Shown piece by piece: positions 4,275 to 21,165 of a DNA stretch of 64,000 nucleotides. The notes under the pieces are model-generated. The model did no database searches, was not told the DNA's origin, and worked only from the letters and a program-made list of their open reading frames with translations. This DNA comes from Micrococcaceae bacterium (GTDB lineage Bacteria; Actinomycetota; Actinomycetes; Actinomycetales; Micrococcaceae), in NCBI GenBank assembly GCA_030452125.1, contig JAKDMV010000001.1:1-64000 (forward strand), written 5' to 3'. Numbering within the stretch: the stretch's first letter is position 1; the number at the start of each line of letters is the position of its first letter. Both the position numbers and the translations under genes were made by a program.

Positions 4275-5093
4275 ATGAAGAACACCGACAAGGCGGCCGT
4301 CGAGGCCCGCAAGGCAGTCCGCAGCGCATGGTTCGAACGCGCGGCACGGCTTGGCTTCGTGGCCAACGGCATCCTGCATGCCATGCTGGGCTTCCTGACC
4401 TTGAATGTCGCCTTGGCGCGTGGCGGGGATGCCGACCAGTCGGGCGCCATGAGGACGCTCTCCGCACAGCCCGGTGGCGAGATCCTGATTTGGATCTGCT
4501 TCCTGGGCTGCCTCCTGTTGGCGGTCTGGAGCCTGGCCCAGGCCATCGTTCCCAGCCAGAAGGGCCTCGGTTTCATCGTCAAACAGGCGGGCACCGGCGT
4601 CGTCTTCGCGGCCATCGGCACCACCTTCGGCAGCTACGCCCTCGGGGCCGGAAAGGACTCTTCGGAACAGAGCCAGTCCGTTTCGGCGACCCTGATGTCC
4701 TCACCCTTCGGAAGCGTCGCCCTGATCATCGCCGGCCTGGTCGTCATCGGCGTCGGCATCTATTTCATCTACTCCGGCGTGGCCCGACAATTCGCCAAGA
4801 GCCTGCGCCGGCCCTCCAGCCCCACGGTGCAGCGCACCCTGATGATCCTGGGCACCGCGGGTTACGTGGCCAAGGGGCTGACTCTGGCCGCGCTGGGACT
4901 GCTGATCGTCGTCTCCACGGCGCAACACGACCCCGAGGATTCCACCGGCCTCGATGGTGCCCTCAAGGCAGTGCGCGATCAGCCGTTTGGTTCCTTCGCC
5001 CTCATCGCGATCGCCGTCGGCCTGATGGCCTACGCGGTCTTCTTGTTCATGCGCTCGCGCTATGACGAGATGAAACAGGGTGCCGGGCTCTAG
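4275..5093 (+). CDS. DUF1206 membrane protein
   Basis: A 272-residue integral membrane protein built from three DUF1206 repeats of about 80 residues, each with two hydrophobic helices (first pair near residues 28-50 and 70-95). The repeats share motifs such as ARLGFVANGILHAMLG and GTAGYVAKGLTLAALG. The family is widespread in actinobacteria and has no established function. AGGGG directly precedes the ATG. The gene follows the MFS gene closely and may be cotranscribed. Its stop codon overlaps the stop of the convergent CoA-binding gene in a shared CTAG. Confidence 0.85.
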   Translation: MKNTDKAAVEARKAVRSAWFERAARLGFVANGILHAMLGFLTLNVALARGGDADQSGAMRTLSAQPGGEILIWICFLGCLLLAVWSLAQAIVPSQKGLGFIVKQAGTGVVFAAIGTTFGSYALGAGKDSSEQSQSVSATLMSSPFGSVALIIAGLVVIGVGIYFIYSGVARQFAKSLRRPSSPTVQRTLMILGTAGYVAKGLTLAALGLLIVVSTAQHDPEDSTGLDGALKAVRDQPFGSFALIAIAVGLMAYAVFLFMRSRYDEMKQGAGL

Positions 5094-5878
5094 GAGCGCA
5101 TCAGGTTGCGCCGCTCGATCGCCGGGCAGGCGTCCATGACCACATCCAGTCCGGCGGCCGTGGCGCGGGCCGCGGCGGCTTCATCGATGACCCCGACCTG
5201 GAGCCACACGGCCTTCGCGCCGATGTCGATGGCCTGGTCGACGATGGCGCCGACCTTCTGCGAGTTCACGAAGCAGTCCACGACGTCGATGGTCCCGGGG
5301 ATCTCATCGAGCCGGGTGTAGCCCCGCTCCCCGTGGACGGTGTCCCCCTTCAGCGAGACCGGGACGATGTCCATGCCCAGGTCATCACGCACGATCCGCG
5401 CCACCCCGACGGCGGCTCGCATCGGATTATTGGACAGACCGACGATGGCCCAACGGGCCGGGGTGGTGAGCAGACGCCGGATGGTGTCCGGATCGTTGAT
5501 GTGGTGCTGGCGCAGCTGTGGACCGTCGGTCCCGCCATCACCGAGTACCGGCTCGCGCAGCACCGGTTCGGAAAGCACCGGATCGGACACGTTCAGGACC
5601 GGCTCAGTGGTGCGCAGCTGCGGATCGGTGGTGCCCAACGGTGGTCCTTCGACCTCGGGAACCTCCGGTTCAACGACGGCTCCGCGACGGCCGGTCCCCG
5701 CAAGGTCGAGACCTGGCGGTGCCGATTCCCCGGGGGTGGACGGCGGACGGACCGGTGCCGCGGGGATGTCGACATCGGCAATATCGGCCTCCGGGATATC
5801 GGCTGCGGGGATCTCCAGATCGGGGATCCCTGCCAGCTCGGCATCGGACGGTTGGTTCTGCGGTGCTGGTTCCGTCAT
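5090..5878 (-). CDS. CoA-binding domain protein with long low-complexity N-terminus
   Basis: The C-terminal ~130 residues form a Rossmann-like CoA-binding domain of the YccU type: WAIVGLSNNPMRAAVGVAR, then VVDCFVNSQKVGAIVDQAI and a closing VVMDACPAIE segment. The N-terminal ~125 residues are acidic, proline-rich and repetitive: a run of IPxADIP-like units followed by repeats around EPVLxxxDPVL. These look disordered. Start chosen at the ATG at 5878; the frame is open further upstream, but that stretch overlaps the next gene and has no family similarity I can see. A shorter paralogue without the extension lies at 21162-21662. The cellular role of the family is not established. Confidence 0.78.
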   Translation of the reverse strand: MTEPAPQNQPSDAELAGIPDLEIPAADIPEADIADVDIPAAPVRPPSTPGESAPPGLDLAGTGRRGAVVEPEVPEVEGPPLGTTDPQLRTTEPVLNVSDPVLSEPVLREPVLGDGGTDGPQLRQHHINDPDTIRRLLTTPARWAIVGLSNNPMRAAVGVARIVRDDLGMDIVPVSLKGDTVHGERGYTRLDEIPGTIDVVDCFVNSQKVGAIVDQAIDIGAKAVWLQVGVIDEAAAARATAAGLDVVMDACPAIERRNLMRS

Positions 5879-5910: not shown

Positions 5911-7323
5911 TCAGCCCACCGGGGCCGTCTGCTGGGTGGCAGCTGCCGAGTGCTTGGAGAACGCTCCCCGGTAGGCGGCGGCCGGGTGGTTGGCCTCCAG
6001 GGTGGCCGTCCTGCCGAAGACCTTTTCCCGCAGGGTCCCGGGTGCGTACTCGCTTTGGGCCAGACCGCGGGCCCGCAGTTCTGGAAGGACCCCCTCGATG
6101 AAGTCGGTATAGGAGCCGGGAAGGATCTGGTTGATGATGTTGACCCCATTGATCCCGGCATCCTGCCACCGCTCAAGTTCGTCGACGATTTGTTCCGGGG
6201 TACCGGCGATCTGTTGTGCTTTCGCCCGCGAGCGGGCCAGATCTCCGACGGTCGGCTTACCGCCGGGTACCGAGGCGATGACCGCCTCGAGGACCCCGCG
6301 TGCCCCTTCGGTTTCGATATCGCCCAGCGGGGTGTCCAAGTCCAGGCCCCCGAGGTCCACGCCGATGCCCCCGCCGATATGCGCGATCAGGGCGTGGGGG
6401 TCCAGGTACTGGTCATATTCGGTCTCCTTGCGCTTGACCTCTGCCTCGGTGCTGCCCACGACGAAGGACAGCCCGGCGAAGATCTTCGCGTCCCCCGGCG
6501 ATCTGCCCGCTGCGGCTTCGGCCGCCCGGATGGCCGTTGCTTGTTTGCGCACGTATTCGGTGTTCGGGGCGAACAGGAACGTGGCCTCGGCATGGGCCGC
6601 GGCGAAGGCCTTCCCACGCGGTGAGCTGCCGGCTTGGAAGAGGAACGGGGTGCGCTGCGGGCTCGGCGAGGACAAATGCGGGCCTTCGATGGAATAGCGG
6701 GGGCCTTCATGGTGGATCTTGTTCACCAGGGCCGGGTCGGCATAGCGACCGGTCTGCTTATCGGCCAGCACAGCCCCATCCGCCCAGGAGCCTTCCCATA
6801 GTTTATAGACGGCGGAGACGTATTCCTCGGCCCAGTCATAGCGGTCTGCGTGGGCGGCCAGGCCCGTGGCCCCGAAGTTGCGGTGGGAGTTCTCCAACAC
6901 GCTGGTCACGATGTTCCAGGCGACCCGGCCTCCGGAGAGGTGATCGAGGGTGGAGAACTGGCGGGCCATCTGGAACGGGTCGGACTGCACCACCGAGCTG
7001 GTCAGCGCCAACCCGATCTGAGAGGTGGTCGCGGCCAGGGCGGAGGCCAGCACCAGAGGGTCATTGGAGGGTACCTGCAGCCCCTTCTCCACCAGCGAGG
7101 CCCACCCTCCCTCATGGTCGCCGTAGAGGCCCACCACGTCGGCGAAGAACAGGGCATCGAATTTTGCGTCCTCGAGTTGCCGGGCTAGATCTACCCACAG
7201 ACCGAGCTCGTTATAGCGATGCTGTTGGGCCTCGGGGTGACGCCACTGGCCTCCCAGGATGTGGCTCGGGGTGTTCATCAAAAAGGCGCTCAGCAGCAGG
7301 CGCGGGCGTTGGTTGGTGCTCAT
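5911..7323 (-). CDS. NtaA/SnaA/DszA-family flavin monooxygenase (copy 1)
   Basis: A bacterial-luciferase-like (LLM class) monooxygenase of 470 residues that uses reduced FMN from a separate reductase. This family attacks C-S or C-N bonds, for example in sulfones, dimethyl sulfide or nitrilotriacetate. Visible family motifs are HILGGQWRHPEAQ near the N-terminus, FDALFFADVVGLYG, the LDHLSGGRVAWNIVTS segment and FQAGSSPRGKAFAA. It is the last gene of a transcript headed by a SAM riboswitch (transporter, acyl-CoA-dehydrogenase-like oxygenase, this gene), and its ATG overlaps the previous stop by 4 bases. A role in mining organosulfur compounds is inferred from this context; the substrate is unknown. 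No flavin reductase is encoded nearby. Confidence 0.85.
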   Translation of the reverse strand: MSTNQRPRLLLSAFLMNTPSHILGGQWRHPEAQQHRYNELGLWVDLARQLEDAKFDALFFADVVGLYGDHEGGWASLVEKGLQVPSNDPLVLASALAATTSQIGLALTSSVVQSDPFQMARQFSTLDHLSGGRVAWNIVTSVLENSHRNFGATGLAAHADRYDWAEEYVSAVYKLWEGSWADGAVLADKQTGRYADPALVNKIHHEGPRYSIEGPHLSSPSPQRTPFLFQAGSSPRGKAFAAAHAEATFLFAPNTEYVRKQATAIRAAEAAAGRSPGDAKIFAGLSFVVGSTEAEVKRKETEYDQYLDPHALIAHIGGGIGVDLGGLDLDTPLGDIETEGARGVLEAVIASVPGGKPTVGDLARSRAKAQQIAGTPEQIVDELERWQDAGINGVNIINQILPGSYTDFIEGVLPELRARGLAQSEYAPGTLREKVFGRTATLEANHPAAAYRGAFSKHSAAATQQTAPVG

Positions 7324-8585
7324 GCTCGGGTGGTGTCCTTCGGAGTCGTGGTGGCTTCGCCGATGCTGTTCAGGCCGATGGGGATGGTTCCGTTGATGTG
7401 GAAGTCACCGACGGAGCGGGCCTTGAAGGCCGCCGGGTTGTGGGTGGCGACCGTGCGGGCGTTGCGCCAGTGCCGGTCCAAGGATTTTCCGCGGCTGGTG
7501 GCGGAGGCCCCGGTCACGTCGAAAAGGGCCCCTGCGGCATCGAGGACCAGCGGCGGGACAGTCACCTGGGCTTTCTGCACGGCGATTTCCGCGCGCAGGA
7601 ACGCCGCTTCCGTGTCCAGGGCCACAGCCGGATCGACGGCGGCGTCCAGGTCGCGGGCCGCTGCAGCAACCACTGCTTCGGCGGCATAGACCCGTGCGGC
7701 GAGGGTGCCGACATGTTCCTGGATCTGTGCGTCATCGCGGAAGAGTCCACCGGATCCGGTATTGAACGTCCGGGTGCGGGCGGCGACGAGTTCGGAGGCG
7801 TCGCGCAGCGCGGCCCGCCCAATCCCGGCCAGCACGGCCAGCAGGACCAGTTGGAAGAACGCCGGTTCCAGCGTGCTGGTGACCTTGCGGGAAATGATGT
7901 TGGAGGACTCGACGGCCACGTTGTCGAAGATCGCGGTTCCGGTGCCGGTCAACGGTTGGCCGAAGCCGTCCCAGTCATCGTGGATGGCCACCCCGTCGGC
8001 ATCGGTGGGGACGACGGCGTACTGCCGGCCTTCGACGCCCTCGGTACTGGCCAGCACCACCACCCAATCGGCGAAGATGCTGCCGGTGGTGTAGTACTTC
8101 GCACCATTGAGGACCCAGCCGCCGTCGTGCCGTGTCAGTTTCGTCGCCGTGGTGCCCAGGGCGTTGCCGCCGCGTTCGGTGGCCGCATTGCCGAAGATCT
8201 GCCCGGCCAGCACCCGCGGGAACCAGGTGTCGCGGAAGTCCCGCGGCTGCAAGGCAATGGTTTCGACGAAGGAAAAATGTGATCGCAGCAGATGGGCCAC
8301 GTTGGAATCGGCGGCAGCCAATTCCACCAGCAGCCGGAACAGGTGTTCATGGTTCACCGGGTCCCCGCCGTATTCGGCCGGCACCCGCAAGGTGGTGAAA
8401 CCGGCCTCCTGGAGGCACCCGACTTGTTCGAAGGGAAGCACATGGTCCTGTTCGCGGGCGACGGCGTCGACGGCGATGGCGTCGAAGACGGGGCGGAAGC
8501 GTGCGGCCAGGGCAAGATAGCGGGCTTCGGAGCCCTCCGGCACGGGGGTGTCGAAGGCCGGTGGGGTGGTGGTGGTTTCACTCAT
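7320..8585 (-). CDS. Acyl-CoA-dehydrogenase-fold flavin monooxygenase, DszC/SfnB type (copy 1)
   Basis: A 421-residue protein with the acyl-CoA dehydrogenase fold. Its signatures are those of DszC/SfnB sulfur-acquisition oxygenases rather than beta-oxidation enzymes: ERGGNALGT, LNGAKYYTTGSIFADWVVV, and the C-terminal RHWRNARTVATHNPAA followed by INGTIPI. Such enzymes add oxygen to sulfur using reduced FMN. A much longer frame is open upstream, but the ATG at 8585 starts the conserved protein and leaves 8 bases to the transporter gene. It overlaps the downstream LLM monooxygenase by 4 bases, indicating coupled translation. Paralogue of the product of 11464-12729. Confidence 0.85.
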   Translation of the reverse strand: MSETTTTPPAFDTPVPEGSEARYLALAARFRPVFDAIAVDAVAREQDHVLPFEQVGCLQEAGFTTLRVPAEYGGDPVNHEHLFRLLVELAAADSNVAHLLRSHFSFVETIALQPRDFRDTWFPRVLAGQIFGNAATERGGNALGTTATKLTRHDGGWVLNGAKYYTTGSIFADWVVVLASTEGVEGRQYAVVPTDADGVAIHDDWDGFGQPLTGTGTAIFDNVAVESSNIISRKVTSTLEPAFFQLVLLAVLAGIGRAALRDASELVAARTRTFNTGSGGLFRDDAQIQEHVGTLAARVYAAEAVVAAAARDLDAAVDPAVALDTEAAFLRAEIAVQKAQVTVPPLVLDAAGALFDVTGASATSRGKSLDRHWRNARTVATHNPAAFKARSVGDFHINGTIPIGLNSIGEATTTPKDTTRA

Positions 8586-8593
8586 GGTCGTTC

Positions 8594-9943
8594 CTAACTG
8601 ACGAGGGTATGTTCGGGCTCGGAGACGGGGCAGGCGTCTTGGCGTGCGTCCAGATCCCGCGCACTGGTTTCGGGGGAAAGCAGGGTGGTGACGACGGTGA
8701 GCGCGCCGACCGCAACGAAGTAGGCGATGACCCAGATCGGGCTGCCGCCGCCGGCGGCCAGCAGCGCGGTGGCCACCAGCGGGGCCAGGCCACCGCCCAG
8801 GACTGAACCGATCTGATAGCCGATGGACACCCCGGAAAAGCGGACCCGGGTGTCGAAGAGCTCGGAGAAGAACGCCGCCTGCGGCCCATACATCGCGTCG
8901 TGGCCGATGTTCATGCCCAGCACGACGGTCAGCACGATCAGCACGAAGCTGCCGGTATCGAGCAGCGGGAAGGCGATCAGGGCAACCAGGATGCTGAATA
9001 TCCCGCCGAAGAGGTAGGTGCGCCGGCGCCCGATCCTGTCCGATACCCAGCCCCAGAACGGGACGGTGACCAGTCCGAGGGCGGAGGCGATGAGAATGGC
9101 CTGCAACCCGGTTTCGCGGCTGATTCCGCCCTGGGCCAGGTAGGTCAGGATGAAGACCGTGTAGACGTAGTAGAACGCGTTCTGGGCGATGCGCAGCCCG
9201 GTGGTCAGGGCGACTTGGCGGGGATGGGTGCGCAGCGATTCCAGCACCGGGCGGCGGGAGACCTGCTGCGTTTGAACCACCTGTTTGAAGGAGGCGCTGT
9301 CCTCGATCCTCAGCCGCACCACCAGACCGACGACGACCAGCAGGATGCTCGCCAGGAACGGCAGCCGCCATCCCCAGGCCAGATAGGCGGCATCCGGCAG
9401 GGCTGATTCCAGTCCCAACAGCACCGCCGTGGCCAACAGCATGCCCGCGCTCGGGCCGATTTGGGTGGCGCTGCTGGTCAGTCCGCGGCGTCCGGGGGCG
9501 GCGTGTTCGACGGTCATCAGGGCGGCTCCCGCCCATTCGGCACCGTAGCCGATGCCCTGGGCCACGCGCAGGATCAGCAGTAGCGCCGGGGCAATCCATC
9601 CGGCAGTGTCGTGGGTGGGCAGCAAACCGATCGCCGTGGTGGCGATACCGGTCAGCAGCAGGGAGGCAACCAGCACGGTCTTGCGTCCGATCCGATCCCC
9701 GTAGTGCCCTCCAAGAAGCCCACCAATGGGGCGGGCGATGAACCCGACGGCATAGGTGGCGAAGGCCGCCATGGTCCCGACCAACGGGTCGGCCGGTGCG
9801 AAGAACAGCGGGCCGAAGACAGTCGCCGCGGCGAGCCCGTAGAGCACGAAGTCGTAGCCCTCGATCGTGGTGCCGATGAAGCTGGCGACGGCGACGCGTG
9901 AACGCATCCTGCGGGTTGGCGGGGTGGGCGTGGTGGTGGTCAT
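8594..9943 (-). CDS. MHS-type MFS transporter
   Basis: A 449-residue, 12-helix metabolite:H+ symporter-like carrier (same superfamily branch as ProP and ShiA). Signatures include VASFIGTTIEGYDFVLYGLAAA at the first helix, GGLLGGHYGDRIGRKTVL (loop 2-3 motif) and WGWVSDRIGRRRTYLFGG in the second half. The ATG at 9943 follows AAAGGAA, a site that abuts the SAM riboswitch P1 helix. As first gene of the unit it probably imports the sulfur compound that the two following flavoenzymes oxidise. That substrate assignment is inference from position. Confidence 0.85.
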   Translation of the reverse strand: MTTTTPTPPTRRMRSRVAVASFIGTTIEGYDFVLYGLAAATVFGPLFFAPADPLVGTMAAFATYAVGFIARPIGGLLGGHYGDRIGRKTVLVASLLLTGIATTAIGLLPTHDTAGWIAPALLLILRVAQGIGYGAEWAGAALMTVEHAAPGRRGLTSSATQIGPSAGMLLATAVLLGLESALPDAAYLAWGWRLPFLASILLVVVGLVVRLRIEDSASFKQVVQTQQVSRRPVLESLRTHPRQVALTTGLRIAQNAFYYVYTVFILTYLAQGGISRETGLQAILIASALGLVTVPFWGWVSDRIGRRRTYLFGGIFSILVALIAFPLLDTGSFVLIVLTVVLGMNIGHDAMYGPQAAFFSELFDTRVRFSGVSIGYQIGSVLGGGLAPLVATALLAAGGGSPIWVIAYFVAVGALTVVTTLLSPETSARDLDARQDACPVSEPEHTLVS

Positions 9944-9955
9944 GGTGGTTCCTTT

Positions 9956-10039
9956 CCATCGGTCCCGGCGGAAGCACCTGCCCGAAACGGGTGGTTGCTG
10001 CGGAGTCAACGAGCCAGGTCTCTCGTCCGCTCTGGATGG
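9956..10039 (-). ncRNA. SAM-binding riboswitch (S-box / SAM-I/IV-like), copy A
   Basis: Read on the minus strand, a CCATC/GATGG pair closes P1. P2 pairs GCGGA with TCCGC around a GAGAGACCTGGCTCG kink-turn arm, and the conserved TGAC and AGCAACC follow. P3 is the short hairpin CCCG-TTT-CGGG, followed by the core GGTGCT. There is no long P4 arm, so the SAM-I/IV variant class fits better than classic SAM-I. The P1 3' strand runs into AAAGGAA, the ribosome site of the transporter gene, so ligand binding should block translation. It begins only 18 bases after the stop of the upstream monooxygenase gene. Confidence 0.85.
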
Positions 10040-10057
10040 TGGTTCTCGTAGGTGCTG

Positions 10058-11467
10058 CTAGCTGGTGGCCAGTTGTGCTCCCGCGAGCCGGTAGTCGGCG
10101 GCCCGGTGGCTGTCCTTGACCCGGTCCCCGGCGCCGAAGAGCTTCTGGCGCAGGGTCCCCGGCGCGTATTCGGTGGGGTAGGCACCCAGGGCCTGCAGTT
10201 CGGGGATGACGAATTCGACGACGTCCTCGAACGTGCCCGGGGTGATGGCGTAGGCGATGTTGAAGCCGTCCACGTCGGTGTCCTCGACCCATTCGACGAG
10301 CTTCGCGGCGACCTGGGCCCCGTCACCGACGGTGACCGGGCCGAAACCGCCGACGCCGATCCATTCGGCCAACTGGCGGATGGTCCACGGTTTGCCGTCA
10401 TCCCCGGAGGCCTTCTTGAACGTCTCCACCGAGGACTGGATGGCATTGGACTTCACGTCCTCACCGATCACGTCGTCAAGGTCGTACTGTGACATGTCGA
10501 TTCCGGTCCAGCCCGAGAGCAGGGCCAGCGACCCGTTGATGTCGGCGTAGGAGGCATAGTCGGCGTATTTGTTCTGCGCCTCCTCGTCTGTGGCAGCGGT
10601 GATGATCGTCTGCATCGTGTAGATCTTCACGTCGTAGCGGTCGCGGCCGGCGGCCTCGACATTGTCCCGGATCCTCCGCACGGTGTCGGTGAGGATTTCT
10701 TTGGTCGGACTATTCACGAAGACGGATTCGGCGTTCGCCCCCGCGAATTCCAGGCCGCGCGGGGAGGCACCGGCCTGGTAGATGACCGGGGTGCGCTGCA
10801 CCGAGGGTTCGGTGATGGCAATGCCCGGGACCTTGAAGTACTTGCCCTCGTGGCCGATCTCGTGGACCTTCGACGGGTCGGTGTAGACCCCCGATTCCCG
10901 GTCGCGGAGAACGGCGTCGTCCTCCCAGGAACCCTCGAGCAGCTTATAGACCACTTCGAGGTACTCATCGGCGTGGTCGTAGCGTTCGTCGTGTTCCATC
11001 TGGTCTTCCTGGCCCATGTTCCTGGCTGCCGAGGGCAGGTATCCGGTCACCACGTTCCAGCCGAGGCGGCCGTTGGTCAGGTGGTCCAGGGTCGCCAGTC
11101 GGCGGGCGAACGGGTAGGGGTGTTCGTAGGCGGTTCCGGCGGTGACCCCGAAGCCCAGGTTCTCGGTGACGGAAGCCATCGCGGAGACCAGCAGGAACGG
11201 GTCGTTGACCGGGACCTGGGCGCCGGCGGAGAGCGGGGTGGAGTTGGTGGATCCGTAGACGTCGTAGGTGCCCAAGACGTCCGCGATGAAGATCCCGTCG
11301 AACAGCCCCTTCTCCAGCGTCTTGGCCAGCTCGGTCCAGTAGCCCAGTTCCTTATAGCGCCACGCCTGGTCCTGCGGATGACGCCACAGCCCCGGCGATT
11401 GGTGGACCACGCAGTTCATGTCGAAGGCGTTCAGGCGGATCCGGCGGCGTGCTGGTGTGGTGCTCAT
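10058..11467 (-). CDS. NtaA/SnaA/DszA-family flavin monooxygenase (copy 2)
   Basis: A second LLM-class reduced-FMN-dependent monooxygenase, 469 residues, with LWRHPQDQAWRYKELGYW, FDGIFIADVLGTYDVYG, LDHLTNGRLGWNVVTGYL and YQAGASPRGLEFAG. It resembles copy 1 throughout but is clearly diverged, so it may act on another substrate. It is the second gene after riboswitch B and overlaps the preceding oxygenase gene by 4 bases. Members of this family include dimethyl sulfide, sulfone and dibenzothiophene-sulfone monooxygenases. Control by a SAM riboswitch supports organosulfur rather than aminopolycarboxylate substrates. Confidence 0.87.
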   Translation of the reverse strand: MSTTPARRRIRLNAFDMNCVVHQSPGLWRHPQDQAWRYKELGYWTELAKTLEKGLFDGIFIADVLGTYDVYGSTNSTPLSAGAQVPVNDPFLLVSAMASVTENLGFGVTAGTAYEHPYPFARRLATLDHLTNGRLGWNVVTGYLPSAARNMGQEDQMEHDERYDHADEYLEVVYKLLEGSWEDDAVLRDRESGVYTDPSKVHEIGHEGKYFKVPGIAITEPSVQRTPVIYQAGASPRGLEFAGANAESVFVNSPTKEILTDTVRRIRDNVEAAGRDRYDVKIYTMQTIITAATDEEAQNKYADYASYADINGSLALLSGWTGIDMSQYDLDDVIGEDVKSNAIQSSVETFKKASGDDGKPWTIRQLAEWIGVGGFGPVTVGDGAQVAAKLVEWVEDTDVDGFNIAYAITPGTFEDVVEFVIPELQALGAYPTEYAPGTLRQKLFGAGDRVKDSHRAADYRLAGAQLATS

Positions 11468-12729
11468 TTTTCTCCTTCAGGGGTCTTGAGGTCGCCGACG
11501 GCGCCGAGTTTGCGCGGCGTCGCGGCGTTGACCTCGTAGTCGCCGACGATGCGGGACTTGTACATGGCGGGGTTGTGGGTGGCTATGGTGCGCGCGTTGC
11601 GCCAGTGGCGGTCCAGGTTGCAGGCGGTGGAGGTCGCCGAGGCGCCGAGGCCGTCGAAGAGCTTGCTGGTCGCCTCGAGCACGAGTGGTTGGATGCTCGT
11701 CTGGGCCCGGTTGGCGGCCAGCTCGCTGACCGCGTACTGCTCCGCGGGGCTCAGCCCCGGTTGGCCGATCACCGATTCGAGTTCGGCGATGGCGGCCAAC
11801 AGGATCGCGTCCACGGCACAGGCGGTCGCCGAGATCTCTCCGATGACCTGCAGGACCTGGGGTTCATGCCGGGAGGGGACGCCGGTTCCGGTGGTGAAGG
11901 CTCGTTCACGCAGTTGGGTGTGGGCGCGGGCGTCGGCGAGGACCGCCCGGGCGATACCGGCCTGGACGGCGAGCAGCACCAACTGGAAGATGGCCGATTC
12001 CGGGTGGACGTCCAGCACCTCGGGGTCCAGGAGCGTATCCACGGGAACCCGGGTGAATCCGGTGGTCCCGGTGCCGGTGAGTTGTTGGCCGAACCCGTCC
12101 CAATCGTCGTGGATGACCACCCCCGAATGCTGGGTGGACACCACCGCGACGTGGCGTCCTTCAACCGCCGGCGCCATGGCGGTGACCGCCACCCAGTCGG
12201 CGAAGAGCGTCCCGGTGCAGTAGTACTTCTGCCCCGTGAGCAGCCAGCCGGCCTCGGACTGTTCGACGGCGGTGTTCAGGTGGCCCAGGTCGTTGCCGCC
12301 GCGCTCGGTGTAGGCGTTGCCGACGATCTGCCCGGCGACGAAGCGGGCGAACCAGCGCGCCTTGACCGCCTCGTCGTGGAGCAGCAGCACCGATTCGACG
12401 AAGCCGATATGGGCCCGCAGCAATTGGGCGATCTGCGAGTCGGCCTCCCCCAGCTCGATGAGCAAGCGGAAGGAATCAACCAGCGAGGCGCCGAAGCCGC
12501 CGACCTCCCGGGGGACCCGCAGGGCACCGAAGCGGGCCTGGTTGAGCCAGCCGACCTGTTCGAAGGGCAGGATCCGCCGGGCATCTCGGTCGGCGGCGCC
12601 ATCGGCGATGCTGGCGAACACGGGTCTGAAGACCGCCGCGAGTTCGTCGTAGTGTCCGTCGGCGGGCACGCCGGGGGTCAGTTTGATCAGGTGTCGCGGG
12701 GTCACTTCGTCGATCGGCAGGGCAGCCAC
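11464..12729 (-). CDS. Acyl-CoA-dehydrogenase-fold flavin monooxygenase, DszC/SfnB type (copy 2)
   Basis: A 421-residue paralogue of the 7320-8585 product. Shared signatures are TERGGNDLGH, LTGQKYYCTGTLFADWVAV and RHWRNARTIATHNPAMYKSR. The start is the GTG at 12729, nine bases after a GGAG that forms part of the riboswitch P1 stem; an ATG slightly upstream is in another frame. It is the first gene of a two-gene unit with the LLM monooxygenase, together a plausible sulfur-oxygenation pair. Activity as a monooxygenase rather than a dehydrogenase is inferred from family signatures. Confidence 0.85.
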   Translation of the reverse strand: MAALPIDEVTPRHLIKLTPGVPADGHYDELAAVFRPVFASIADGAADRDARRILPFEQVGWLNQARFGALRVPREVGGFGASLVDSFRLLIELGEADSQIAQLLRAHIGFVESVLLLHDEAVKARWFARFVAGQIVGNAYTERGGNDLGHLNTAVEQSEAGWLLTGQKYYCTGTLFADWVAVTAMAPAVEGRHVAVVSTQHSGVVIHDDWDGFGQQLTGTGTTGFTRVPVDTLLDPEVLDVHPESAIFQLVLLAVQAGIARAVLADARAHTQLRERAFTTGTGVPSRHEPQVLQVIGEISATACAVDAILLAAIAELESVIGQPGLSPAEQYAVSELAANRAQTSIQPLVLEATSKLFDGLGASATSTACNLDRHWRNARTIATHNPAMYKSRIVGDYEVNAATPRKLGAVGDLKTPEGEK

Positions 12730-12740
12730 AGAACATCACT

Positions 12741-12833
12741 CCATCGGTTCCGGCGTGAGCACCTTCCTCCCGACGGATCGGGAAGGGGTTGCTGCGGCGT
12801 CACGGAGCCAGATCTCTCGGCCGCTCTGGATGG
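12741..12833 (-). ncRNA. SAM-binding riboswitch (S-box / SAM-I/IV-like), copy B
   Basis: On the minus strand: P1 CCATC/GATGG, P2 GCGGC/GCCGC enclosing GAGAGATCTGGCTCCGTGAC, then AGCAACC. A P3 hairpin with CTTCC/GGAAG arms and an inner CCCGA/TCGGG follows, then GGTGCT and CGCCGGAACC before the P1 closing strand. The conserved core nucleotides match copies A and C. GGAG, the ribosome site for the GTG start at 12729, overlaps the P1 3' strand, so SAM-stabilised P1 should hide it. I see no U-tract terminator; translational control is the simplest reading. Confidence 0.87.
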
Positions 12834-13090
12834 TTGTTGTCTCCATTGGGCCACATCATGGGCCCTCAGCGCCACCGTTGGAGTCAACGGAAACCACTTT
12901 TCCGGGGTGTTTCAGCCCAGGTTCCGAGCCCCAGGCAATCCAAGCAACATCGAATATTTCCGTTATTTGCACGGGTTCTGGACACGAAAGTTCAATCCGG
13001 GCACCTCGCAGGAAACATCAATGAAATATTTCGCAACGCGTCGTGTGAAGTTGCTTCTTCTGGTGCCGGTGGCCTTTAGTGGAAAGGTAC
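12834..13090. promoter_or_regulatory. Divergent promoter region between SAM riboswitches B and C
   Basis: This 257-base stretch has no credible gene and must hold both divergent promoters. For the rightward transcript, TTGCTT at 13051-13056 and TTTAGT at 13075-13080 are 18 bases apart and lie 11 bases before aptamer C. An inverted repeat, CCGTTG (12875-12880) and CAACGG (12885-12890), may be an operator. The centre (12950-13035) is AT-richer than its surroundings and contains two near-identical AATATTTC motifs. The leftward promoter could not be placed with confidence. Confidence 0.45.
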
Positions 13091-13206
13091 CCATCCCGAG
13101 CGGCCGAGAGATCTGGCTCCGTGACGCCGCAGCAACCACGCCGAACAAGGCCCCGCCACCCCGCGGAACCCGTCACCGGCGAAGGTGCTTCCGCCAGGAA
13201 CGATGG
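13091..13206 (+). ncRNA. SAM-binding riboswitch (S-box / SAM-I/IV-like), copy C
   Basis: On the plus strand: CCATC (13091-13095) pairs with GATGG (13202-13206) as P1. GCGGC and GCCGC form P2 around GAGAGATCTGGCTCCGTGAC, identical to copy B in this arm, followed by AGCAACC. P3 is longer than in the other copies (about 13138-13182). The core GAAGGTGCTTCCGCC follows. GGAG, which serves the OsmC ATG at 13217, overlaps the end of P1. A frame that reads through this element without a stop is coincidental. Confidence 0.87.
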
Positions 13207-13216
13207 AGCTGAGTTC

Positions 13217-13822
13217 ATGAGCATTGCCCCGACCCGTACGACCGACGCACAGCAGACCCGCCTCGGGGGCTCCGTCTCCCCGAAAGCCCACGACAAACGC
13301 ATTCGTTCCCAAGGGACGTGGCAGGGATCCATGCGGACGAAGATCCGGATCCGGGCCTTCGGCTTCGAAGTGGACGAGCCCGAACCCGTTGGCGGGACCG
13401 ATACCGCCCCCACTCCCATGGAATACATGGTCGGCGCAGTCAACGCATGCCTGGGCGTGGTGGTCGAACAGATCGCCGAGGAACTGCAGATCGGTCTCGA
13501 AGCCATCGAGACCTATTGCCTGGCTACCCAGGACACGCGCGGATTCGCCGGTACCGCCGATGTCCAGCCCTTTTTTCATTCCTGCCGGATCGCCGTCCAC
13601 GTCCAGACCGGAGAACAAGATGCCAGCCGGTTGGACCAGCTGACGACGTCCGTGGAATCACGTTGTCCGGCGCTGACCCTGATCCGCGCCGCCGGCGTTG
13701 TCGTGGATCTTCGCTGGCATTTCGCGGAGTTGATCGATGTCGACGCTCCTGAAAGGGAATGCAACAACGCGGATGCCCTCTCTCGCGGTCTCGACTCGCG
13801 GTCCCGAAAGGTGGAGCAGTGA
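13217..13822 (+). CDS. OsmC family protein under SAM riboswitch
   Basis: A 201-residue OsmC/Ohr-fold protein. The two family cysteines are present: C78 in AVNACLGVVVEQ and C150 in SVESRCPALTLI, so thiol-dependent peroxide or persulfide chemistry is possible. Two further cysteines (C101, C123) are present. The first ~30 residues are an unstructured basic extension and the last ~20 a charged tail. The ATG at 13217 is nine bases after GGAG in the riboswitch. Its stop overlaps the GTG of the symporter gene, so the two are translationally coupled. OsmC proteins usually detoxify organic hydroperoxides; regulation by SAM suggests a sulfur-linked substrate here, which is inference. Confidence 0.85.
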   Translation: MSIAPTRTTDAQQTRLGGSVSPKAHDKRIRSQGTWQGSMRTKIRIRAFGFEVDEPEPVGGTDTAPTPMEYMVGAVNACLGVVVEQIAEELQIGLEAIETYCLATQDTRGFAGTADVQPFFHSCRIAVHVQTGEQDASRLDQLTTSVESRCPALTLIRAAGVVVDLRWHFAELIDVDAPERECNNADALSRGLDSRSRKVEQ

Positions 13823-15453
13823 CATCGGCGGGCGCATGGACCATCGGCTTAGCCGTGGGCTATACGGCTCTTTTGCTCTTTGGCGGCCGCTGGTCCCGCG
13901 TGCGCGCAGGGCGTCCCGGCGGACAGGGCTTCTTCGATGGCGGCCGTTCCTTCAGCCCTTGGACCGTCGCCTTCTGCATCACGGGGCTCTTCTCGGGCTC
14001 TTCATATATTTCCATCATGGAACTCAGCTATCGGACCGGGATTTCCGCTGCCTGGTACGGAGTGGCCGAAACGGTGCAAATTCTGCTGATCGCCTTGTTG
14101 CTGGTGAAACCGCTGCGGGAGAAGCTCGTCGTGACGGTCACCGGCATCATCGGTGATCGGTTCGGTCGGGCGGCTAAAGCCATCGCGGGCGTCATTACGG
14201 CGGTCACTTTCCCCATGTGGTCGGTGGCCACAACGATCGCCTTCGCCTCGGCTTTGACGGCGTTCACCGATTTGCCGCTGCAATGGACGGTCACTGCGAC
14301 CGCGCTGCTTCTGTTGGTTTTTCTCTGGTCGGGCGGCATGAGGTCCGTGGCATTCAATCAGACGTTGAACTGCCTGGTCTTCGTCGTCATGCTCGTCATC
14401 GCGGGCTTCGTAGTGTTGTCGAATCCCGGCCCCGGCGGTTGGCAGGAATTGGCAGCCACCCGTCCGGCGATGGTCGACCCCGGAAATGCCGGGCTGTCCC
14501 TCATCGTCGCCTGGTTTGGGACATTCATCGTCAATGTGCCGCTGGCGCAGGCTGCCTTCCAAATGACCATGTCCTGCCGCTCTCCGCGTGACGGCCAGAA
14601 GGGCCTGTATGCGGCAGCCCTCTTCGGGATCCCCTTCATCGTCCTCGGTGCCCTGGTGGGGACCTCCGCAGCCATTGCGGTTCCCGACCAGGAACTTGGC
14701 CTCGTGGCTGTCCCCTATTACATCAGCGAGACCCTGCCGGCGCCGCTGGTCGGCCTCTTCTTCCTTGGCGTCTGGGCCTGCGCCATGGGCTGGGCGGGGC
14801 CATGCCAGTTTTCCGGAGCCACGTCCCTGGGCCGTGATGTCGGCAGCGCATTACGCCCCAAGGCCACCGAACAAGATCTGGTTCGCTACACCCGGTACTC
14901 CTTGGTTGCCCTGACGGCCTTGATGATCCTTTACGGGATCCTTCGCACCGAGCAGGCTGCCTGGTGGAACGTCCTTGCCTGGACCTTGCGCAACGGGGCC
15001 ACGTTGGCGCCGGTTCTCGCGGTCTTCCTTTGGCCGTTGGCCAGCCGTCGGGCAGTACATGCAGCCATGCTTTCCGGGTTCCTTGCCGGCATTGCCTGGA
15101 ACCAGCTCTCGGGCTGGTCCGCCACAACGTTCTTCGCAGGAATCCATCCCGTGTGGGTTGGAATGGGCATCAACCTTGCAGTCATGGTCGTGGTCACGCT
15201 GGTGACCGTGCCCTGGGAATCCACCCCGGATCGAAAACGACGAACGGCCGGCATCCGCTACACCGCGGGTGGAACGTTGGTCGCTGCAGCACTGCTGACG
15301 TTCGGAGAATGGCTGGGACATTTCGGGCTTCTGGGGCTGGGACTCTTCACCGCCGTGACCCTCTACTCACTGGCGATCTTCAATCTCACCGTAGGAACCA
15401 CCCGCCGGCAGCACCTGCCCACCACGGAAGAAACCATCCCGGTTTCCGCCTAG
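13819..15453 (+). CDS. Sodium:solute symporter family (SSS) transporter
   Basis: A 544-residue, roughly 13-helix membrane protein of the SSS family (PutP/SglT fold). Family-like segments are FFDGGRSFSPWTVAFCITGLFSG near the N-terminus and GVWACAMGWAGPCQFSGATSLGRDV in the middle. I chose the GTG at 13819, which overlaps the OsmC stop and follows AAAGGTGGAG; the frame is open 60 bases further upstream. As the second gene of a SAM-riboswitch transcript it is a candidate importer of a sulfur-containing substrate such as a sulfonate or methionine-related compound. No substrate can be read from the sequence. Confidence 0.85.
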   Translation: MTSAGAWTIGLAVGYTALLLFGGRWSRVRAGRPGGQGFFDGGRSFSPWTVAFCITGLFSGSSYISIMELSYRTGISAAWYGVAETVQILLIALLLVKPLREKLVVTVTGIIGDRFGRAAKAIAGVITAVTFPMWSVATTIAFASALTAFTDLPLQWTVTATALLLLVFLWSGGMRSVAFNQTLNCLVFVVMLVIAGFVVLSNPGPGGWQELAATRPAMVDPGNAGLSLIVAWFGTFIVNVPLAQAAFQMTMSCRSPRDGQKGLYAAALFGIPFIVLGALVGTSAAIAVPDQELGLVAVPYYISETLPAPLVGLFFLGVWACAMGWAGPCQFSGATSLGRDVGSALRPKATEQDLVRYTRYSLVALTALMILYGILRTEQAAWWNVLAWTLRNGATLAPVLAVFLWPLASRRAVHAAMLSGFLAGIAWNQLSGWSATTFFAGIHPVWVGMGINLAVMVVVTLVTVPWESTPDRKRRTAGIRYTAGGTLVAAALLTFGEWLGHFGLLGLGLFTAVTLYSLAIFNLTVGTTRRQHLPTTEETIPVSA

Positions 15454-15544: not shown

Positions 15545-17545
15545 ATGACCAACGTACCGACAATGGACTCCCCCACTGCCGACGCCCAGCTCGATGTCCT
15601 GAACGCCGAAGCCGCACGCCTGGACTTCTGGGCCGAGGCCGCGGCACGCCTGGACTGGACCGAACCCTGGCATACGATCCACAGCACTACCGCCGTGGAC
15701 CCGGTGGCCCGCCGGGGCCCCGAACTACGCTGGTTCGAGGGCGGGAAACTCAATGCGGCGGTGAACTGTGCCGACCGGCATGTCGCCTCCGGCCAGGGGG
15801 AGAAGGTCGCCCTGCATTTCGAGGGCGAACCCGGGGACCGGCGCAGTGTCACCTACGCCGAGCTGACCGGCATGGTCAGCCAGGCGGCCCACGCCTTGAC
15901 CTCCCTGGGCATCGGCGTCGGGGACCGCGTGGTCATCTACCTGCCGGTGCTGGTGGAGACCATTGTCATCACCCTGGCCTGCGCCCGGATTGGTGCGGTG
16001 CATTCGCTGGTCTTCGGCGGCTTCTCGGCCGAGGCCCTGCGATTCCGGGTCGAGGACACCGGGGCGAAGCTCCTGGTCACCACCGACGGCCAGTTCCGCC
16101 GCGGAACCGCGGTGCCGGTCAAGGCCCACGCCGACGCCGCGGTGGCCGGGGACAACGCCATCGAACACGTATTGGTCATCCGTCGCACCGGCAGCGGGAT
16201 CGCGTGGACCGAAGGCCGGGACCTGTGGTGGCACGAGGTGGTCGAGAAGCAGCCGCGCACCCACGCCGCCGAGGCCTTCGACGCCGAAACCCCGCTGTTC
16301 ATCATGTACACCTCGGGGACCACCGGGAAGCCCAAGGGTCTGGTGCACACCACCGGCGGCTACCTCACCCAAGCCTCCTGGAGCCACGAGTTCCTCTTCA
16401 GCCATCCGGACCCCGGCCAGCGGGACCTGGACGTGCACTGGTGCACCGCCGACCTGGCCTGGGTCACCGCCCACACCTACGAGATCTACGGACCACTGTC
16501 CAACGGTGTCACCCAGGTCCTCTACGAAGGCGTCCCCAACGCCCCGCATCCGGGACGGCACTTCGAGATCATCGAACGTTATTCGGTGACCAGCTACTAC
16601 ACGGCCCCGACCCTGGTGCGCTCGCTCATGGGCTGGTTCCCGGACGGTATCCCCGCCGATCACGACCTCTCCTCCATCCGGATGGCCGGCACCGTCGGGG
16701 AGGCCGTGAACCCCGAGGCCTGGCGTTGGCTGCGCACCCAAGTCGGCCGCGATTCACTGGTTCCCGGTGAGCCCAATGCCGGCATCCCGATGGTCGACAC
16801 CTGGTGGCAATCCGAAACCGGCGCCACGATTCTTTCACCGCGCCCCGGCGATACCGTGCTCAAACCCGGTTGTGGCACCCGGGCACTTCCCGGGGTGGCC
16901 ACGGACATCGTGGACGAGGACGGCGCCCGGGTCCCGGCGAACGTGCAAGGGAACATCGTGCTCACCGCCACCGGTCCGGCCATGGCGCGTACCGTGTGGG
17001 GCGATCCGGAACGCTACTTCAGCAGCTATTGGCAAAAGTACGCCGCGCAGGGCTGGTTCCTCGCCGGAGACGGCGCGAAGTACGACGACGACGGCGACAT
17101 CTGGATCCTGGGGCGCACCGATGATGCGGTGAACATCTCGGGTCATCTGCTCTCGACCATCGAGATCGAATCAGCTCTGGTCTCCCATCCGGGGGTCGTC
17201 GAGGCGGGGGTCTGCCCCACCGTCGATGCCACGACCGGTCATGCGGCAACGGCGTTCGTCGTCCCCCATGACCCAACATTGGTCGATACCGACGGCAGCG
17301 CCTCCCCCACTCCGGAGCAGGTGGCGGCCGCCGCCGATCTGCGCGCCCATGTGGCCGCGCAGATCGGTCCGATCGCCAAGCCGCGCGACATCGTCTTCGT
17401 CCCCGATGTCCCCAAGACCCGTTCCGGGAAGATCATGCGCCGGCTACTGACCCAACTGTTCGAAGGATCCGCGTTGGGCGATACGACGAGCCTGCAGAAC
17501 GAAGAGTGCCTGCCCGCCCTGGAACGGATCTGTGCCGCTGGCTGA
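15545..17545 (+). CDS. acsA: Acetyl-CoA synthetase (AMP-forming)
   Basis: Activates acetate to acetyl-CoA through acetyl-AMP. Family features are in order: ARIGAVHSLVFGGFS, the P-loop-like YTSGTTGKPKG, DTWWQSETG (adenine and acyl pocket), GRTDDAVNISGHLLSTIEIE, and a C-terminal PKTRSGKIMRR with the catalytic and usually acetylatable lysine. Length is 666 residues, typical. Start at 15545 because GGAG sits about seven bases upstream; an ATG at 15506 is also in frame. It lies 91 bases after the symporter gene and could belong to the same transcript, or salvage C2 fragments left by C-S cleavage. That link is speculative. Confidence 0.92.
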   Translation: MTNVPTMDSPTADAQLDVLNAEAARLDFWAEAAARLDWTEPWHTIHSTTAVDPVARRGPELRWFEGGKLNAAVNCADRHVASGQGEKVALHFEGEPGDRRSVTYAELTGMVSQAAHALTSLGIGVGDRVVIYLPVLVETIVITLACARIGAVHSLVFGGFSAEALRFRVEDTGAKLLVTTDGQFRRGTAVPVKAHADAAVAGDNAIEHVLVIRRTGSGIAWTEGRDLWWHEVVEKQPRTHAAEAFDAETPLFIMYTSGTTGKPKGLVHTTGGYLTQASWSHEFLFSHPDPGQRDLDVHWCTADLAWVTAHTYEIYGPLSNGVTQVLYEGVPNAPHPGRHFEIIERYSVTSYYTAPTLVRSLMGWFPDGIPADHDLSSIRMAGTVGEAVNPEAWRWLRTQVGRDSLVPGEPNAGIPMVDTWWQSETGATILSPRPGDTVLKPGCGTRALPGVATDIVDEDGARVPANVQGNIVLTATGPAMARTVWGDPERYFSSYWQKYAAQGWFLAGDGAKYDDDGDIWILGRTDDAVNISGHLLSTIEIESALVSHPGVVEAGVCPTVDATTGHAATAFVVPHDPTLVDTDGSASPTPEQVAAAADLRAHVAAQIGPIAKPRDIVFVPDVPKTRSGKIMRRLLTQLFEGSALGDTTSLQNEECLPALERICAAG

Positions 17546-19809: not shown

Positions 19810-21165
19810 ATGTCCGATCACCGGTTTGGATTCCGTACCCGCGCCCTGCACGCCGGAGGCACCCCCGATGCCGAGCACGGGGCCCGTGCGGTCCCGATCT
19901 ACCAGTCCACCTCGTTCGTGTTCAAGGACACCGACGACGCGGCCAACCTGTTCGCCCTGCAGAAGTACGGGAACATCTACTCCCGGATCGGCAACCCCAC
20001 CGTCGCGGCCTTCGAGGAACGCGTTGCCTCCCTGGAAGGGGGCATCGGGGCGGTGGCCACCGCCTCGGGCATGGCCGCGGAGTTCATCACCTTCGCCGCA
20101 CTGACCGGCGCCGGAGACCATATCGTCGCCTCCTCGAAGCTCTACGGGGGCACCATCACCCAGCTGGACGTGACGCTGCGCCGCTTCGGCGTGGACACCA
20201 CCTTCGTGGACAGCAACGAGGCGGCCGACTTCGCCGCCGCCCTCCGCCCGGAAACCAAGGCCCTCTACACGGAGGTCGTCGCCAATCCGTCGGGGGACAT
20301 CGCCGACCTCAAGGGCCTGGCGGCCGTCGCCCGCCAGGCGGGCATCCCGCTCGTCGTCGACTCCACCCTCACCCCGCCGTACATCCTGCGCCCCATCGAA
20401 CACGGTGCGGATATCGTCATCCATTCGGCCACCAAGTTCCTGGGCGGCCACGGCACGACGATGGGCGGGGTCGTCGTCGAATCCGGCCGCTTCAACTGGG
20501 GCAACGGGAACTTCCCGACCCTGACCGAACCGGTGCCCTCCTACGGCAACGTGTCCTGGTGGGGGAACTTCGGCGAATACGGGTTCCTGACGAAGCTGCG
20601 CTCCGAACAGCTCCGCGATATCGGTCCTGCCCTGTCCGCCCAGTCGGCCTTCCAACTGCTGCAGGGGGTCGAGACGCTCCCGCAACGCATGGACGCCCAT
20701 CTGGCCAACACCTCGACGATCGCCGCCTGGCTCGAGGCCGACCCCCGCGTCAGCTACGTGAACTTCGCCGGACTACCTTCCCACCCCCAGCACGAACGGG
20801 CGCAGGACCTGCTGCCCGATGGGGTCGGCTCGGTCTTCAGTTTCGGGATCTCCGGCGGGCGCGAGGCCGGAGGCCGGTTCATCGAGGCGCTGCAGCTGGC
20901 CAGCCATCTGGCCAATATCGGTGACGCCCGCACCCTGGTCCTGCATCCGGGATCGACGACGCATCAGCAGTTGAACCCCGAACAGCTGGCCGCCGCGGGC
21001 GTGCCGGAGGACCTGATCCGGCTTTCGGTGGGGCTCGAAGACGTCGAAGACATCATCTGGGATCTGGATCAGGCACTCACCGCCGCCCAGGCCACCTCCG
21101 CCGACGCCGCCGGAGCCGATGCGACCCCAGCAGATAGCGCCGAAGAGATCGGAGTCTTCTCGTGA
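19810..21165 (+). CDS. metY: O-acetylhomoserine aminocarboxypropyltransferase (sulfhydrylase)
   Basis: Makes homocysteine from O-acetylhomoserine and sulfide, assimilating inorganic sulfur directly into the methionine branch. A 451-residue PLP enzyme of the Cys/Met metabolism family: GFRTRALHAGGTPD at the N-terminus, RIGNPTVAAFEERVASLEGG, and the PLP lysine K209 in IHSATKFLGGHGTTMGG. The insertion with WGNGNFPTLTEP is typical of MetY rather than MetB. The C-terminus has an Ala/Asp-rich tail of about 30 residues. Sulfide released by the nearby oxygenase island would be a natural substrate. The next gene overlaps by 4 bases. Confidence 0.93.
   Translation: MSDHRFGFRTRALHAGGTPDAEHGARAVPIYQSTSFVFKDTDDAANLFALQKYGNIYSRIGNPTVAAFEERVASLEGGIGAVATASGMAAEFITFAALTGAGDHIVASSKLYGGTITQLDVTLRRFGVDTTFVDSNEAADFAAALRPETKALYTEVVANPSGDIADLKGLAAVARQAGIPLVVDSTLTPPYILRPIEHGADIVIHSATKFLGGHGTTMGGVVVESGRFNWGNGNFPTLTEPVPSYGNVSWWGNFGEYGFLTKLRSEQLRDIGPALSAQSAFQLLQGVETLPQRMDAHLANTSTIAAWLEADPRVSYVNFAGLPSHPQHERAQDLLPDGVGSVFSFGISGGREAGGRFIEALQLASHLANIGDARTLVLHPGSTTHQQLNPEQLAAAGVPEDLIRLSVGLEDVEDIIWDLDQALTAAQATSADAAGADATPADSAEEIGVFS

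Follow-up and report, generated by a model that had tools for sequence, protein, structure and literature searches.

Positions 1 to 64,000 of contig JAKDMV010000001.1 from a Micrococcaceae bacterium (assembly GCA_030452125.1), referred to here as the window, contain an island of predicted organosulfur-scavenging genes equipped with three S-adenosylmethionine (SAM)-I riboswitch elements, R1, R2 and R3 (Table 1), which, judged from the sequence, probably act as SAM-OFF translational switches for this island. A scan of the whole window with the Rfam 15 covariance models (cmscan) returned exactly two matches above the RF00162 gathering score of 44.4 bits, R1 and R2. R3, whose E value comes from a local scan of 1.1 kb, aligns end to end over the full RF00162 model and carries an insertion of 32 nt in its P3 loop. 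A model trained on 40 elements from Micrococcaceae gives R3 86.1 bits, a score that is not independent because R3 belongs to the training set of that model. Orthologs of R3 are present in the same-genus genome G002 and in Arthrobacter rhombi, a related contig of which shows 92–99% protein identity, placing the window in a close relative of A. rhombi. At the window elements RF00162 is the best-scoring match within its clan; the Rfam scan gave no match to RF00634 (SAM-IV) on the window's contig, and no match to RF01725 was reported in the window. An earlier note, made from the letters alone, had picked out three elements with the same core as SAM riboswitches, and they are indeed SAM-I, two lying above gathering and the third just under it at full length; the scan for RF00162, RF00634 and RF01725, which that note had named as a refuting test, thus found RF00162 matches and leaves the claim standing. 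A whole-genome search of the 3.0-Mb genome revealed a fourth SAM-I element (C18:6221-6330) before metF and metE, so that three of the four lie within 3.3 kb, inside the organosulfur island.

The architecture of these RNAs was analysed in an alignment of the 40 Micrococcaceae SAM-I elements, in which the core columns are invariant and the SAM-binding core (AGAG, GCAACC and GGUGC) is present together with P1, a kinked P2 and P3. Covariation supports P1, P2, P3 and the pseudoknot, with 98.7% of cells paired as compared with only 27–56% in slid-partner controls, and with 47 two-sided changes observed versus 11.4 in shuffles. The L2-J3/4 pseudoknot (CUGG:CCRG) is paired in all 40 elements, and C-G to U-A double changes occur in three sequences. 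The three window elements share the SAM-binding core, the P2 kink-turn, the pseudoknot and P3. The P4 hairpin, located between J3/4 and P1, is absent from them and throughout our family survey, which took the loci around the strongest RF00162 matches (145 distinct elements, of which 139 have a gene that can be read downstream) and is accordingly biased to strong matches; the spacing from GGUGCU to the P1 strand is 11–13 nt in all 133 parsable elements. P4 is retained in the 12 best-scoring elements outside the class and in two from same-class genomes of 8–9 Mb. Several other actinobacterial families likewise lack P4, others keep it, and a loss specific to Micrococcaceae was rejected on these grounds; the P4-less form is a recurrent variant rather than a local oddity, because it occurs in those other families too. 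SAM-IV (RF00634) shares the same core and the PK-1 pseudoknot and also lacks P4, but carries P5 and a second pseudoknot, PK-2, after P1 (PMC6890682). Neither P5 nor PK-2 was found downstream of P1 in the window elements, where the start codon follows the aptamer end by 7–9 nt in R1, R2 and R3 and therefore leaves no room for them; with no RF00634 match there either, assignment of these elements to SAM-IV or to a hybrid class was rejected. The window elements are a P4-less variant of SAM-I (S-box, RF00162) and are predicted to bind SAM. They resemble the canonical class in the core (GAG..GAGAGA, GCAACC and GGUGCU), P2 kink-turn, L2-J3/4 pseudoknot, P3 and control of sulfur genes, yet differ in the missing P4 and in their clients, which are organosulfur monooxygenases and carriers.

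The placement of the ribosome-binding site (RBS) points to the mode of control. In R1, the 3′ strand of P1, GAUGGAG, holds the GGAG of the RBS ahead of a GUG start codon at 12729; in R2, the strand GAUGG abuts the RBS AAAGGA (ATG at 9943); and in R3, the P1 strand supplies the GG of GGAG within GAUGGAG (ATG at 13217). The start codon lies at most 22 nt from P1 in 92 of the 139 surveyed elements. SAM-OFF control of translation is therefore the likely mechanism of R1, R2 and R3, as predicted from this arrangement. Both the mechanism, with the RBS in P1, and the riboswitch class are already known.

Conservation across the family was assessed with the SfnB1 protein, rather than the RNA, as query. 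This gave the best loci of 30 Micrococcaceae genomes, 30 in all, of which 26 have a SAM-I element within 1.5 kb and 23 have it directly upstream in the same direction; one of the four negative loci ends at a contig edge. No SAM-I element was found near SfnB homologues at nine loci outside Micrococcaceae (Bradyrhizobium, Enterovirga, Mycobacterium, Rhodococcus and metagenome-assembled genomes), and the same model does detect SAM-I elements in other classes. RF00162 is present in 311 of the 395 Micrococcaceae genomes sampled. The 139 clients of the family survey include 50 ABC ATPases (with one SsuB/nitrate-sulfonate-type and one MetN-type representative identified), 21 SfnB-like proteins, 17 LLM proteins, 13 peptide/nickel-type binding proteins, about ten acetate-CoA ligases, nine flavin reductases, five MetF and five MetY, besides rarer ones: two MHS carriers, two MetE-like proteins, two SfnG (a SfnG client scoring 596 bits, above the equivalog cut-off), one OsmC and one unassigned. 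The prediction that SAM-I elements gate organosulfur scavenging gains support from this conservation, that is, from the 23 of 30 SfnB loci and the sulfur-related clients of the family. Taken together, the comparison identifies predicted SAM-I control of the SfnB/LLM-type island as a family-wide regulon in Micrococcaceae. An unusually dense case is the Zafaria cholistanensis locus L016 (2189-9919), where 13 kb hold five SAM-I riboswitches, which precede acetate-CoA ligase, ssuB-like, SfnB, LLM and metN-like genes. A MetY-like gene in the window (19810-21165, plus strand) has no SAM-I element that we could find before it; its G002 ortholog (L151:16034) does have one (L151:15847-15940), so the element has apparently been lost or gained inside the genus.

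The earlier note had divided the island into three transcription units; two divergent units are more probable. R2 starts about 15 nt past the LLM1 stop codon and is for that reason taken to be a switch inside a polycistronic message, most likely that of one long minus-strand operon. In the family survey, 14 of the 139 elements lie at most 80 nt from an upstream reading frame on the same strand. Within the units, the gene pairs SfnB1/LLM1, SfnB2/LLM2 and OsmC/SSS each share a 4-nt overlap, whereas 8 nt separate MHS from SfnB2. A promoter consensus scan of the region found no promoter. The seven genes counted previously hold as a minimum but not as a total, since AcsA probably belongs to the R3 unit as its third gene and a CoA-binding gene stands close behind LLM2, making the count probably at least eight. 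A SAM-I element lies directly before the AcsA ortholog at loci L016, L017, L018 and L022; the distance is 4–7 nt in Zafaria, Paeniglutamicibacter, Arthrobacter sp. MYb227 and G002, arguing that AcsA is a conserved client that belongs in the R3 unit. The CoA_binding_2 gene may be the last gene of the R2 transcript. The same order, LLM2 followed by the CoA_binding_2 gene, is seen in G002 (L151:2723-3538).

Table 1. Riboswitch elements and genes of the island and its borders, in window coordinates
Feature	Position	Strand	Support and context
R1, SAM-I riboswitch, P4-less	12738..12836	-	RF00162 55.3 bits, E 4.9e-10; leader of SfnB1-LLM1; kept in all genus members
R2, SAM-I riboswitch, P4-less	9953..10042	-	RF00162 53.3 bits, E 1.8e-9; leader of MHS-SfnB2-LLM2
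R3, SAM-I riboswitch, P4-less	13088..13209	+	RF00162 42.8 bits, E 3.6e-8; leader of OsmC-SSS(-AcsA)
SfnB1, SfnB/MsuC/DszC-type flavin-dependent monooxygenase-like	11464..12729	-	TIGR04022 263.5 bits; PDB DszC 5xb8 E 7e-35, MsuC 6u76 E 4e-34
LLM1, NtaA/DmoA-family FMN monooxygenase	10058..11467	-	TIGR03860 542 bits; PDB 6ak1 E 2e-160
MHS-type MFS carrier	8594..9943	-	TIGR00883 401 bits (cut-off 443)
SfnB2, second SfnB/DszC-like protein	7320..8585	-	TIGR04022 294.4 bits
LLM2, NtaA/DmoA-family FMN monooxygenase	5911..7323	-	TIGR03860 482 bits; best solved relative 6lr1 E 1e-139
CoA_binding_2 protein	5090..5878	-	PF13380; 32 nt after LLM2
OsmC-family protein	13217..13822	+	PF02566 51.8 bits; NF041052 69.9 bits
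SSS sodium/solute symporter	13819..15453	+	PF00474 55.3 bits; GTGA overlap with OsmC
AcsA, acetate-CoA ligase	15545..17545	+	TIGR02188 743.6 bits; about 90 nt after SSS, own RBS

Profile matches bear out the gene content listed in the earlier note, namely two SfnB/DszC-like proteins, two LLM monooxygenases, an MHS carrier, OsmC and SSS. LLM1 and LLM2 pass the curated TIGR03860 cut-off (279.7 bits) and AcsA passes the TIGR02188 equivalog cut-off (724.95 bits), whereas SfnB1 and SfnB2, with TIGR04022 E values of 1e-78 to 1e-88, both fall under the equivalog cut-off of 430.9 bits and are relatives of SfnB, DszC and the methanesulfinate monooxygenase MsuC, not equivalogs. The nearest solved protein to LLM1 is the dimethyl-sulfide monooxygenase DmoA (53% identity), which makes LLM1 a candidate for activity on dimethyl sulfide. 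LLM1 and LLM2 are 40% identical and SfnB1 and SfnB2 48%, a divergence that fits, and suggests without proving, two substrates for the two cassettes. A third SfnB-like copy in this genome (C39:10960-12180, plus strand) contains one in-frame TGA and may be a pseudogene or reflect an assembly error.

Elsewhere in the genome, five SAM-IV (RF00634) matches are present, none of them in the window. Their clients are MetY, a flavin reductase on C37 and a protein of the OsmC family, as well as two small unassigned frames; the flavin reductase is of the kind needed by two-component monooxygenases. The genome's two OsmC-family proteins are 34% identical, one standing behind SAM-IV (C47:3892-4007, L157) and the other behind SAM-I (13088-13822). 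Two of the SAM-IV matches form a pair about 10 kb apart (C109:4301-4411 and C109:14293-14437, L158), the second scoring below the cut-off, and lie 11–12 nt before the small unassigned frames of about 95–110 residues. Sulfate reduction genes (PF01507) are also present, and scavenging would therefore be an addition to sulfate use.

We propose that plentiful SAM would bind the P1/P3 core and lock P1. Since GAUGG, the 3′ strand of P1, belongs to the RBS or touches it, translation of the first gene would then be blocked, and the block would extend to the translationally coupled genes behind it. The second, internal switch R2 in the long minus-strand operon would be explained by the fact that a switch hiding an RBS should reach only its own coupled block. 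When SAM is low, through methionine or sulfur shortage, the SfnB/DszC-like and DmoA/DszA-like flavin monooxygenases, the carrier, OsmC, SSS and probably AcsA would be made. The monooxygenase pairs might oxidise a small thioether, sulfone or sulfinate and then cleave its C–S bond, and the freed sulfur would return to methionine and SAM synthesis, where metF-metE is a SAM-I target and MetY and the flavin reductase are SAM-IV targets. AcsA perhaps recovers acetate released by sulfhydrylation of O-acetylhomoserine or O-acetylserine (MetY/CysK-type). Transcription of the island could still be under a protein repressor.

Several observations weigh against this reading. R3 scores 42.8 bits, slightly short of gathering, and any assignment of substrates is tentative because SfnB1, SfnB2 and the MHS carrier lie below their equivalog or subfamily cut-offs. 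Folding with ViennaRNA, which models neither pseudoknot nor ligand, favours P1 in R3 and gives a near tie in R2; for R1 it prefers another fold, which likewise hides the RBS. The riboswitches might instead act on transcription, by termination or antitermination, with R2 having its own promoter or serving as an internal attenuator. Long leaders are indeed found in the remaining 47 of the 139 surveyed elements, among them most leaders of binding-protein and MetF genes and roughly half of those of LLM genes; in several of them the GGACC of the aptamer can base-pair with a GGUCC further downstream, in the manner of an anti-P1 hairpin, and the leader of the R2 ortholog in G002 spans 82 nt and includes a hairpin-like stretch. 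We nevertheless regard transcriptional control as unlikely for the island, where the short distance from aptamer to start codon leaves no space for a terminator, and where terminator-like sites do not exceed shuffles and none follows any aptamer.

The nature of the substrates bears on a further alternative, that the SfnB/LLM cassettes and carriers serve non-sulfur compounds (amino-polycarboxylates, haloaromatics or alkanes) and are regulated by SAM for another reason. The LLM family also covers NtaA, EmoA, LadA and HcbA1, and the solved protein nearest to LLM2 is the hexachlorobenzene dehalogenase HcbA1, a further point against organosulfur scavenging. However, the other SAM-I clients of the family that can be recognised are for the most part genes of sulfur or methionine metabolism, or redox partners, the SfnB partner resembles DszC/MsuC and LLM1 is closest to DmoA, so that a non-sulfur role appears very improbable. 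Better placed, though still the less probable view, is that R3 with OsmC, SSS and AcsA forms a separate module for uptake and CoA-activation of a small, sulfur-containing or other carboxylate, rather than for acetate recycling. In G002 the corresponding locus lacks OsmC and SSS, so that R3 stands directly before AcsA, and the pairing of an SSS symporter with a neighbouring acyl-CoA ligase is reminiscent of actP-acs; the ligase itself, on the other hand, passes the cut-off for acetate-CoA ligase. Translational SAM-OFF control of one scavenging island remains our preferred reading.

Enzymes related to those of the island are known from other systems. The Pseudomonas sfn/msu system, which acts on dimethyl sulfone and methanesulfinate and is under protein regulators, has SfnB/MsuC- and SfnG-type enzymes, a likeness resting on family-level matches. 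In the sulfur-starvation desulfurization (dsz) system of Rhodococcus IGTS8, growth on organic sulfur induces enzymes of the DszC/DszA type together with an NtaA-like protein; the candidate regulators there are proteins (CymR/Rrf2-like and ROK family) and the paper mentions no riboswitch (PMC8557817). The nearest published parallel is Candidatus Pelagibacter ubique, in which SAM-V and SAM-II riboswitches gate osmC, metY, bhmT and mmuM under sulfur limitation; the parallels with the island, seen or predicted, are the clustering of SAM riboswitches in one variable region, RBS occlusion, the presence of osmC and metY among the clients, and induction by sulfur limitation (PMC5069961). The riboswitch classes differ, however, and organosulfur import is not increased in that organism (PMC5069961); in the island described here, scavenging enzymes and transporters are the clients. 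The link between OsmC and SAM riboswitches is recurrent: in the genome studied here it involves SAM-I and SAM-IV, in Pelagibacter SAM-V (PMC5069961). A literature search for riboswitches in connection with SfnB, desulfurization, sulfonate or Arthrobacter returned no report of this regulon or of SAM-I control of SfnB/LLM-type genes, with key older SAM-IV and S-box papers lying outside the search and a prior mention possible. It is the clientele and its family-wide conservation that appear to be new.

The finding yields a model that can be tested directly with ready reporters, and more than 140 short aptamers as a natural collection in which to study SAM-I function without P4; it also gives hints to the function of poorly understood proteins such as OsmC. 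It is further relevant to biodesulfurization, where repression by sulfate and methionine is a practical obstacle, and to the soil and food sulfur chemistry of environmental actinobacteria, which involves thioethers, sulfones and sulfonates. In a broader proposal, for which we see roughly even chances, P4-less SAM-I would be the main organosulfur-scavenging switch of Micrococcaceae, in place of the usual protein regulators of sulfate starvation; where switches stand in series, operon-internal ones included and as many as five within 13 kb in Zafaria, each would gate one coupled block, and some genomes would split the regulon between SAM-I (uptake, C–S cleavage and MetFE) and SAM-IV (MetY, flavin reductase and OsmC). 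SAM riboswitches have mostly been treated as regulators of the synthesis of methionine and SAM; in this family, that same type of RNA appears to time the attack on organic sulfur.

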